Assembly (NCBI RefSeq): GCF_000374305.1 | Contig: NZ_KB894096.1 | Location: 496,001-560,000 of the forward strand | Length of the DNA: 64,000 nucleotides | Direction of reading: 5' to 3' | Source: Actinomadura flavalba DSM 45200 | GTDB lineage: Bacteria > Actinomycetota > Actinomycetes > Streptosporangiales > Streptosporangiaceae | Part shown: one piece after another, positions 34,677-39,239 of the stretch | How positions within the stretch are numbered: the first letter of the stretch is position 1 | Layout: each line of letters starts with the position of its first letter | Notes under the pieces: model-generated | Told to the model about the DNA's origin: nothing | The model's database searches: none | What the model saw: only the letters and a program-made list of their open reading frames with translations | Program-made: the position numbers and the translations under genes

Positions 34677-35723
<1,047 letters not shown>

Positions 35724-36059: not shown

Positions 36060-36752
36060 ATGCGCCGCGGTCTCCTCCTCCCGCTCCTGCTCCCGGCACT
36101 GCTGCTGCCCGGCGCCGCGCCCGCGCTCGCCGACGACGACGCCTACCCCGTCACCCCCTCCACGCGCGCCGACCGGATCGCGTCCCTGTGGAAACGGGAC
36201 CGCGTCGTCGTCACCGACCACGCGCCGCGCTCGCTGCCGCCCGACGCCAAGGCCCGCATCACCGCCGCGACCGAGAAGCTCGGCGCGCCGGTGTACGTCG
36301 CCGTCGAACCCCGGCTGCGGGCCGTCCTGGACGCCCGCGCGCTCCTCCCGCTGCTGCGCGACCGCATGAACGGCGACGGGGTCTACATCGTCCTGGAGGC
36401 GAGCGGCTCGCTCGGCGAGGCGCTCGTCGCCGGGAGCGCCACCGCCGTGATCCCCGAGAAGGCGTGGCGGACCGCCGACTTCGAGCTGGCGTCCGGGGTG
36501 GGCGCCGTCGCCGTCGTCGAGCGGTTCGCCGAGGTCGTCCGGTCCGGGAACGTCGAGGCCCGCTACCGCGCCGCGGTGGAGGCCGAGCGCCCCAAGTCCG
36601 CCACCCGCAAGCGCCTCGACGCCTACGAACGGGCCCGCTCGGAGGAGTCCGCCGTCCAGTGGACCGCCTTCGGCGCCGGGACCGCCGCGAGCGCCGGAGC
36701 CGTTCTGCTGTTCGCGTTCCTGCGCCGCCGCACCCGCCGGACGAGACGATGA
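36060..36752 (+). CDS. Secreted/membrane protein with TPM-like domain, cassette member A
   Basis: 230 residues. A signal peptide (MRRGLLLPLLLPALLLPGAA, Ala-x-Ala near 25-27), an extracytoplasmic domain of about 170 residues, one TM helix (about 201-221), and a basic tail RRRTRRTRR that should stay cytoplasmic. The external domain contains LGAPVYVAVEP...RMNGDGVYIVLEASG, reminiscent of TPM domains, and aligns with the N-terminal domains of the next two genes. It lacks the Cys-containing C-terminal module of those genes. ATGA overlap with member B. I do not recognise a characterised homologue; no function is assigned. Confidence 0.75.
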   Translation: MRRGLLLPLLLPALLLPGAAPALADDDAYPVTPSTRADRIASLWKRDRVVVTDHAPRSLPPDAKARITAATEKLGAPVYVAVEPRLRAVLDARALLPLLRDRMNGDGVYIVLEASGSLGEALVAGSATAVIPEKAWRTADFELASGVGAVAVVERFAEVVRSGNVEARYRAAVEAERPKSATRKRLDAYERARSEESAVQWTAFGAGTAASAGAVLLFAFLRRRTRRTRR

Positions 36753-38026
36753 CCCGTCCCCGGACGCCGCCGCTCGCGCGCCGCATCGACGCCGTCCTCG
36801 CCGCCGCGCTGCTCACTGTTCTCGTCGCCGTGCTCGCATCGGTCACGGCCGCCCGCGCGCACGCCGAGCCCATGCCCCCGCACGCGTACCAGCGGCTCGA
36901 CCGGGTCGGCGCCGCGCTCGCCAAGGACCCGCTGTTCGTCGACCCGGACCTCGCGCCGCTGCTCGGCCGAGCCGACCGGGAACGCGTCCGGGCCGCCATG
37001 ACGGCAGCCACGGCCGCCACCGGGGCGCCCGTCCGCGTCGTCGTGCTGCCCAACCCGACGGACTCCGAGTCCCGCGGCGACGACGACGTGTTCCTCCAGA
37101 TGCTGCACGAGCGGACCGGCCGGGACGCCTACCACGTGCTCGTGACCGACCGCGGCTACATCACCGCCGCCGCCTACGGCGTCCCCGGCGTCCGCTACGG
37201 CGGCTACGACGACGGCTTCCCTCCCGACACCTCCGCCCCGGCCGCGCAGCTCACCGAGCGGATCGTCCACCAGCTCGACGGCTACCGCCTCGGCGCCCGC
37301 CGCGACCGCGCCGTCACACCCCGCGTGCGCACCCCCGCGCCGTGGAACGAGGAGGATCGCCCGCTGCGCAGCCGCGACGACGGCCCCGAGATCGCCGCGC
37401 CCCTGCTCACCGGCCTGCTGCTCGCCGGGCCGCTGCTCGGGCTCCTCCTGCTCGGCGTCCCGCCGCTGGCACGCGCCCTCGGCGCGCGCCGCCGCCGCGC
37501 CACCGGGCGGGACGCGCCGCTGCGCGCCACCCCGCGCCACCTGAGCCGCACCGCCGCCCGCGAGATCGACGGCCTGCGCGGCGACCTCGCCGCCGCCGAC
37601 GGCAACCCCGGCGAGGCGTTCGCCGGGGCCGCCTACGACGCCGCGCACCTGCTGCTGGAGGACGTCACCCGCTCCGGCGGCGCCGAACGCTCCGGCGACC
37701 TGCTCACCGCGCTCGTCCTGGCCCGCCGGGGCCGCCGCGCCCTCGCCGACCGCGACGCGCGGCCCGCGACGCCCTGCTTCATCAACCCGCTGCACGGCCC
37801 GTCCGCGCGCAAGCGCCCGATCCCGGGCCGGGGCGCGTCCCGCCGCGTCTGCGGCGCCTGCGCCGACGCGCCGCGCGGCGCCCTCGCCGGACGCTACCTG
37901 CGCGTCCACGACGACCGGGGTCGCTTCGTCCGGCACGACGACCTCGGCGGGCTGTGGGCCGCCACCGGCCACGGCACCCGGCACGACCCCGCCCCGCGCA
38001 TCCTGGAGCATCTCGGTGTGGACTGA
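36749..38026 (+). CDS. Membrane protein with TPM-like domain and CFxNPLHG/CxxC module, cassette member B
   Basis: 425 residues. N-terminal signal or signal-anchor (about 17-37), external domain (about 45-205) with FVDPDLAPLLGRADRERVR, GAPVRVVVLP and RDAYHVLVTDRGYI, a TM segment near 214-243, then about 180 cytoplasmic residues. The last 90 residues hold CFINPLHG (Cys343), RRVCGAC (Cys368, Cys371) and LWAATGHG, a possible zinc-binding Cys/His/Cys/Cys set. Homologous to member C in both domains and to member A in the external one. Overlaps A by 4 bp and C by 11 bp. Unknown function. Confidence 0.75.
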   Translation: MTRPRTPPLARRIDAVLAAALLTVLVAVLASVTAARAHAEPMPPHAYQRLDRVGAALAKDPLFVDPDLAPLLGRADRERVRAAMTAATAATGAPVRVVVLPNPTDSESRGDDDVFLQMLHERTGRDAYHVLVTDRGYITAAAYGVPGVRYGGYDDGFPPDTSAPAAQLTERIVHQLDGYRLGARRDRAVTPRVRTPAPWNEEDRPLRSRDDGPEIAAPLLTGLLLAGPLLGLLLLGVPPLARALGARRRRATGRDAPLRATPRHLSRTAAREIDGLRGDLAAADGNPGEAFAGAAYDAAHLLLEDVTRSGGAERSGDLLTALVLARRGRRALADRDARPATPCFINPLHGPSARKRPIPGRGASRRVCGACADAPRGALAGRYLRVHDDRGRFVRHDDLGGLWAATGHGTRHDPAPRILEHLGVD

Positions 38027-39239
38027 ACCCTCCCCCGGCGAGCGGCTCGCCGCCGCGCTGCGCCGCTCCCCCGTCCACGTCGACCCGTCGCTGGCGGCGG
38101 CGCTGCCCGCCGCCGACCGCGCCCGGCTGCTCGCCAAGATGCGCGCCGCGCCCGTGCCCGTCTACGTCGTCGTGGTGCCGCTCATCACCGGCGGCACCTG
38201 GTCCGACGCCCGCGAGATGCTGGAGGTCGTGCACGACCGCCTCGGCCGCGACGGCGTCTACGTCACCGCCGGGGGCGACCTCAACCGGCTCACCGCCCGG
38301 CAGTGGGGCGGCGGCGCCGACCCCTACGGCGACGGCGGACGGCACGCGCGCAAGGCCGCCAACGCGATCGGCCTCGATCCGGCGCTGCGCAAGGCCCCGC
38401 CCGGCACCCTGCTCGACCGCTTCCTCGACCTGATCATCGCGGGCACCGGGGAGCAGGAGTACAAGCGGCAGTCCGCCGACCTGGAACGGCGCGTCAGGTC
38501 CCGGTCCGCGTCGCCGATCCCCGGCGCACGCGGCGACGACTCGGCCTGGCCGGTCGTGGGCGGCGCCGCCGGGCTCGCCGTCGCCGGTGTCGCGGGCCTG
38601 CTGCTGTGGCGGCACCGCCGGATGCGGGTCGCCCGCCCGGCGGGCAGCGCGCTGCTGCTGCCCCGGACCGTGTTCACCACCGCCGGGCACGCCTCGCAGG
38701 AGGAGCTGCGCGCGCAGGCGTCCCGCGAGGTCGTCGCGTTCGGCGAGGCACTGGACGCCGCCGACGTCCCCGGCACCGCCGAGCGCCCCCGCGAACTGCT
38801 CACCCTCGCCCTGGACGCCTACCAGGCCGCCGGGACCACGCTCGACGCCGCGCGCGGCATGCCCGACCTCGCCGGTGTGCTCGTCCTGGTCGACCTGGGC
38901 CGCGACGCCCTCGCCTCCGCCACGTCCGTCGCGGCGGGAGGGCCGGAGATCCCGCTCGAACCGCTGTGCTTCTTCAACCCGCTGCACGGCGACGCCACCG
39001 TCCGCGTCGACTGGCGCCCCCTCGGCTCCCGCGAACGCCTCAACGTCCGCGCCTGCGCCGACTGCGCCCGCGCCGTCAAGCAGCGCCGCACCCCCGACGT
39101 CCTCCTCGACCGCACGGGCCCCGACCCGATCCCCTACTTCGAGTCCGACCCCGCCCACAGCATCTGGGCCGCCACCGGCTACGGCCAGTTCGCCACCGAC
39201 CTGGTACCCCGCATCCTCCGCGGCGACCTCCACCGCTGA
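38016..39239 (+). CDS. Membrane protein with TPM-like domain and CFxNPLHG/CxxC module, cassette member C
   Basis: 407 residues. The TPM-like domain (VHVDPSLAAALPAADRARLL, PVYVVVVPL, RLGRDGVYVTAGGD) starts right at the N-terminus with no signal peptide. One TM helix lies at about 177-198 followed by RHRRMR, which by the positive-inside rule would place the first domain outside. The C-terminal module has CFFNPLHG (Cys318), RACADC (Cys347, Cys350) and IWAATGYG, matching member B. Either the N-terminal domain is cytoplasmic and topology is inverted, or export relies on partners. GTG start inside the end of member B. A long hairpin (39362-39389) follows. Confidence 0.75.
   Translation: MWTEPSPGERLAAALRRSPVHVDPSLAAALPAADRARLLAKMRAAPVPVYVVVVPLITGGTWSDAREMLEVVHDRLGRDGVYVTAGGDLNRLTARQWGGGADPYGDGGRHARKAANAIGLDPALRKAPPGTLLDRFLDLIIAGTGEQEYKRQSADLERRVRSRSASPIPGARGDDSAWPVVGGAAGLAVAGVAGLLLWRHRRMRVARPAGSALLLPRTVFTTAGHASQEELRAQASREVVAFGEALDAADVPGTAERPRELLTLALDAYQAAGTTLDAARGMPDLAGVLVLVDLGRDALASATSVAAGGPEIPLEPLCFFNPLHGDATVRVDWRPLGSRERLNVRACADCARAVKQRRTPDVLLDRTGPDPIPYFESDPAHSIWAATGYGQFATDLVPRILRGDLHR

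Follow-up and report, generated by a model that had tools for sequence, protein, structure and literature searches.

The locus comprises three overlapping genes, here termed A, B and C, whose coordinates are given as positions within the window, i.e. the whole 64-kb stretch of DNA that was analysed. All three lie on the plus strand, flanked on one side by gap (34677–35675, minus strand) and on the other by whiA, also on the minus strand. Gene A (36060..36752) encodes a 230 aa protein with a signal peptide, a TPM-fold head, one TM helix and a basic tail. Its hydrophobic segments fall at residues 5–23 and 203–221, its C-terminal end reads RRRTRRTRR, and it lacks the C-terminal module present in the other two proteins, just as the first-pass annotation had described. 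Gene B (36749..38026, 425 aa) is predicted to encode a signal peptide, a TPM-fold head, a TM helix and a cytoplasmic module, with hydrophobic segments at residues 15–33 and 219–237. The module of B occupies 37532..38023, and its residues C343, H349, C368 and C371 are conserved according to the orthologue alignment and the hhalign comparison with the module of C. Gene C (38016..39239, 407 aa) has a GTG start and no signal peptide; a TPM-fold head, a TM helix and a cytoplasmic module are again predicted, the module (38688..39236) being supported by the secondary structure of the model and by the ligand columns over 105 modules. The overlaps of 4 bp (A/B) and 11 bp (B/C) agree exactly with those first reported.

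The N-domains of the three proteins are homologous, as had been proposed. BLASTP relates the N-domain of C to those of A and B at E=2e-6 and 8e-8, respectively, and the profiles of the three N-domains match one another at 99.4–99.7 % in hhalign. An AlphaFold model of C built with 44 sequences reached a mean pLDDT of 88.5 and a pTM of 0.52. Its three best PDB matches in Foldseek, all located at the N-domain, are TPM domains (PG_0361, BA41 and BA42; prob 1.00, 0.99 and 0.95; TM 0.57–0.60 by target), with weak E-values of 0.04–0.36, in keeping with the TPM-like domain suggested initially. A Streptomyces A-B fusion, modelled at 80.2 with AlphaFold, shows two TPM-type heads and a module, with BA41 again the first PDB match and TLP18.3 among the matches. 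PF04536 (TPM_phosphatase) had 0 matches in the window's genome and none in the 44 C orthologues, and comparison of the heads with the Pfam TPM profile by hhalign gave 18–82 %, a weak similarity that varies with the profile used. Because of this weak sequence-profile link, the heads are termed TPM-fold here rather than members of PF04536. Among the acidic residues of the C head, D23 is the sole near-invariant one. Homology and models together support the N-domains being one duplicated domain with a predicted TPM-like fold.

The C-terminal modules of B (CFINPLHG...CGAC...LWAATG) and C (CFFNPLHG...CADC...IWAATG) contain the same motifs and align at 99.8 % in hhalign, which bears out the common module ascribed to them. 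In the AlphaFold model of C, helices at 228–248, 256–278 and 282–306 all precede a C-x5-H knuckle at 318–324 (C318, H324); a beta hairpin (329–333/342–346) and a last helix at 348–355 follow, with C347-x2-C350 at the start of that helix. The order of knuckle, beta hairpin and helix is likewise predicted in the model of the A-B fusion. Over 105 modules, the presumed ligand columns hold C in 105/105, H in 104/105, C in 105/105 and C or D at the fourth position in 105/105. B-type and C-type modules all have C as the fourth ligand; in the family of the paralogue D this position is C in 11 modules and D in 23. The D of the window's genome carries Asp at this position (CxxD), as do 23 of the 34 D-type modules. 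Restriction of the fourth position to two zinc-capable residues fits a metal site, and the single metal site originally suggested is plausible. By its modelled secondary structure the module may be treble-clef-like, each copy probably binding one zinc.

No Pfam, NCBIfam or PDB family was found for the module in single-protein and profile searches; A, B and C as a whole gave no Pfam or NCBIfam match, and their profiles find no PDB sequence. This accords with the idea of a self-contained cassette with a module of no known family. Weak matches to Luciferase, ResB, CcmH and GVDTG_CTERM were rejected, as they fall on the TM helix or on chance stretches. The module profile matched in 119 of the 297 genomes of the class and in 30 of the 297 genomes of the phylum sample, some of them from families beyond the class. 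The module is a phylum-wide domain that extends beyond the trio. The cassette is conserved and self-contained, and D carries the same module. In some genomes the only copies are of ~275 aa (L107, L108, L111, L116, L117) and consist of a TM helix (or a basic N-terminus) and the module, with no TPM-like head.

A simple scan found the TM helix of C in 43 of the 44 orthologues; in all 43 the flank after the helix is basic (+2 to +7), and the one before it ranges from −5 to +1. These flanks predict that the C head lies outside, as the first-pass annotation had proposed. In the A-B fusions the signal peptide of B has become an internal TM helix, which would place both heads on one side of the membrane and the module on the other. 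Heads outside and modules inside the cell is therefore the topology we infer. The lack of a signal peptide in C, also claimed from the outset, holds in two close relatives (L001, L036) in which an in-frame stop lies a few codons upstream of the C start, so that no hidden signal peptide exists there. C lacks a signal peptide throughout the window's clade (g1, g17, g48, g66, g67) and in family f19; the remaining C orthologues carry one directly before the same head. This observation covers 38016–38060 of the window and the regions upstream of C in L001 and L035–L042.

Full-length C was found in 33 of the 151 genomes of the window's family, and a C-type or D-type match (trio or D) in 128/151; G026 and G112 hold apparent remnants. 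B lies directly upstream of C in 28/28 loci with sufficient flank, A, B and C occur together in all 20 of the larger neighbourhoods, and cassettes related to the trio are present in three other families. Four lineages (Streptomyces, g9, g46 and g53) have A and B fused into a single reading frame. The cassette is patchily distributed in Streptomyces, in one case on a plasmid record. Its conservation between genera and between families places the trio far beyond chance. Full-length C is kept in those 33 genomes, but the trio is missing from G037, a genome of the same genus with D only, and this absence indicates that the trio is not essential in the genus. The position next to gap was confirmed only in part; the order gap–trio–whiA recurs in close relatives (L001, L002, L035, L036, L037) but not elsewhere, and since the linkage is confined to these, a functional link with gap or whiA is not supported. 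No constant partner gene was found among the trio neighbourhoods compared, neighbours varying between genera. The gene directly downstream of C in g17 encodes a P-type ATPase of ~1,480 aa that has a long extension at its N-terminus (L041:10959, L042:10729). In g46 the cassette lies beside genes for aconitase, a luciferase-like monooxygenase and a Ser/Thr kinase (L098, L102, L103), and one of these loci (L098) holds tandem cassette copies with two A-B fusions and three C-type modules. A Streptomyces locus (L101) contains two A-B plus C sets.

The closest paralogue of B and C by BLASTP, hhalign and the module tree is D, a single-copy gene in the window's genome (L005:955-2259, L056) that was out of sight of the first-pass annotation and encodes a signal peptide, head, TM helix, module and Gly/Met-rich tail. 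The module tree (FastTree, midpoint rooted, some nodes weak) separates B-type, C-type and D-type modules, with B and C clades that span genera and families. D-type is the most widespread of the three module types, and on the strength of this wide distribution D is probably the ancestor of the trio. Several families (f1, f2, f19, f42) have the biotin carboxylase gene bccA upstream, often immediately so, of D alone or of the trio together with D. Several genera of the window's family show the order bccA–A-B-C–D–lpd, in f19 the cassette has the order B-A-C and lies between bccA and D, and in one f26 locus (L109) it lies beside bccA. D of Streptomyces has cimA as its neighbour instead, and no bccA lies nearby in f26 and f43. 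These arrangements suggest that D, downstream of bccA, was duplicated in tandem to give the trio, which later moved to the gap/whiA site in the Actinomadura group. Beyond bccA adjoining D, the neighbours gave no clue to function. A WXG100-type gene adjoins bccA and D in several genera (L057, L060, L062, L063, L066), with an ORF of ~1,500 aa beyond it in some. Two ORFs adjoining D (L063:6822-8174, L066:7151-8707) score ~40 bits with the D-module profile and cluster with a pentapeptide-repeat protein (L060).

The anatomy of the trio is well supported, its function inferred. The reading ranked first, held tentatively and with a little less than even confidence, is that A, B and C form one membrane-spanning hetero-oligomer that, with no catalysis of its own, helps an envelope or membrane enzyme complex to assemble or to stay stable. 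In such a complex, the three proteins would bind one another through their heads and TM helices, the outer heads would hold a client, and the modules of B and C, each binding one zinc in a treble-clef-like site, would dock a cytoplasmic partner. The natural A-B fusions back a complex, and the TPM matches of the models, the constant placing of B before C, the joint presence of all three genes, the ligand columns and the basic flank after the TM helix also speak for this reading. A non-catalytic role in assembly or stability is favoured by the occurrence of TPM-fold proteins in membrane assemblies, by two papers that argue for an assembly role of TPM proteins rather than phosphatase activity (PMC11237479; PMC12419801) and by D23 being the only near-invariant acidic residue. 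Set against the complex are the varying neighbours, the need to export the C head with no signal peptide, the missing trio in G037 and the weak Foldseek E-values. A more far-reaching version, in which a phylum-wide treble-clef-like zinc domain beneath the membrane and a three-headed TPM complex couple cytoplasmic metal or redox state to the assembly of envelope complexes outside, is doubtful. Ranked next after the complex is a transmembrane sensor, an unlikely function, in which the TPM-like heads outside would perceive a signal in the envelope and the modules of B and C on the inside would relay it to a cytoplasmic partner. The predicted layout of outside head and inside module and the conserved cytoplasmic metal-type site would suit it, and a switch of the fourth ligand from C to D could adjust a response to metal or redox state. 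However, no kinase, regulator or sigma-factor gene is constantly linked across lineages, the Ser/Thr kinase gene lying beside the cassette in g46 only, and no TPM protein is known to be a demonstrated receptor.

The recurrence of bccA ahead of D, with or without the trio, in f1, f2, f19 and f42 raises the idea that acyl-CoA carboxylase or lipid supply has its accessory factors in the D family and the trio, which would tether the enzyme to the membrane or regulate it there. This is decidedly improbable, given that cimA takes the place next to Streptomyces D, that f26 and f43 have no nearby bccA and that the window's trio would have moved off to gap/whiA; the bccA-lpd-PNP-PGM run may also be mere ancestral gene order. 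Phosphatase or nucleotide-hydrolase activity of the heads, implied by the Pfam name TPM_phosphatase, would suit their TPM fold and a study of BA41/BA42-type proteins, cited in PMC11237479, reporting ATPase/ADPase activity of a TPM domain. Yet no acidic residue of the C head other than D23 is near-invariant, phosphatase activity of TPM domains is disputed (PMC12419801, PMC11237479), and hydrolysis is very improbable here. Scarcely credible is a recent random duplication with no function of its own. Local tandem copies in g46 and Streptomyces (L098, L101) and patchy presence in the window's family could be read in this way, but it is already contradicted by conservation across families, with distinct B and C clades across genera and families, and by the conserved order, the fusions and the conserved ligand set. 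The trio is not such a duplication.

In the trio, a widespread and so far undescribed family has been elaborated into a conserved cassette. A TPM head, a domain of disputed function, is joined in this one family to a probable zinc module that has no Pfam, NCBIfam or PDB entry in the searches made, and the module family is widespread in Actinomycetota. Additionally, the trio and its natural A-B fusions offer a defined partner set for testing the function of TPM proteins.

The literature searched describes no system laid out in this way, in agreement with the original claim that none is known. The D family, itself undescribed in the libraries searched, resembles B and C in TPM-fold head, TM helix and the same module, but differs from the trio in its Gly/Met-rich tail, in a fourth ligand that is Cys or Asp and in lying mostly beside bccA or cimA. 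TPM domain proteins (PF04536; PG_0361, BA41, BA42, TLP18.3, Psb32) share with the trio the head fold and the succession of signal peptide, head and TM helix, although the cytoplasmic module of B and C is not known to be part of them. Members of the Rv1476 family (PF20381) have, like A, a signal peptide, a TPM-like head and a TM helix. Assignment of A to this family was rejected, as the profile gave no match on A and the genome's best matches, at noise level (E=0.18), lie elsewhere. Treble-clef zinc fingers show the same predicted order of knuckle, beta hairpin and a helix that begins with two ligands; the knuckle of the C module is C-x5-H, and the module has no family or PDB match. Chain J of 8hcr, from the M. 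tuberculosis supercomplex, gives a weak match by fold (prob 0.25, TM 0.45). PRSAF1 was considered as its possible identity; PMC8267372 names MSMEG_4692 as the TPM-fold protein of the mycobacterial bcc:aa3 supercomplex, with C. jejuni CcoZ as its structural relative. A C-x5-H...C-x2-C module is not reported in MSMEG_4692-type subunits or CcoZ, which, like the trio, are TPM-fold and membrane-linked, and which function within a membrane enzyme complex.
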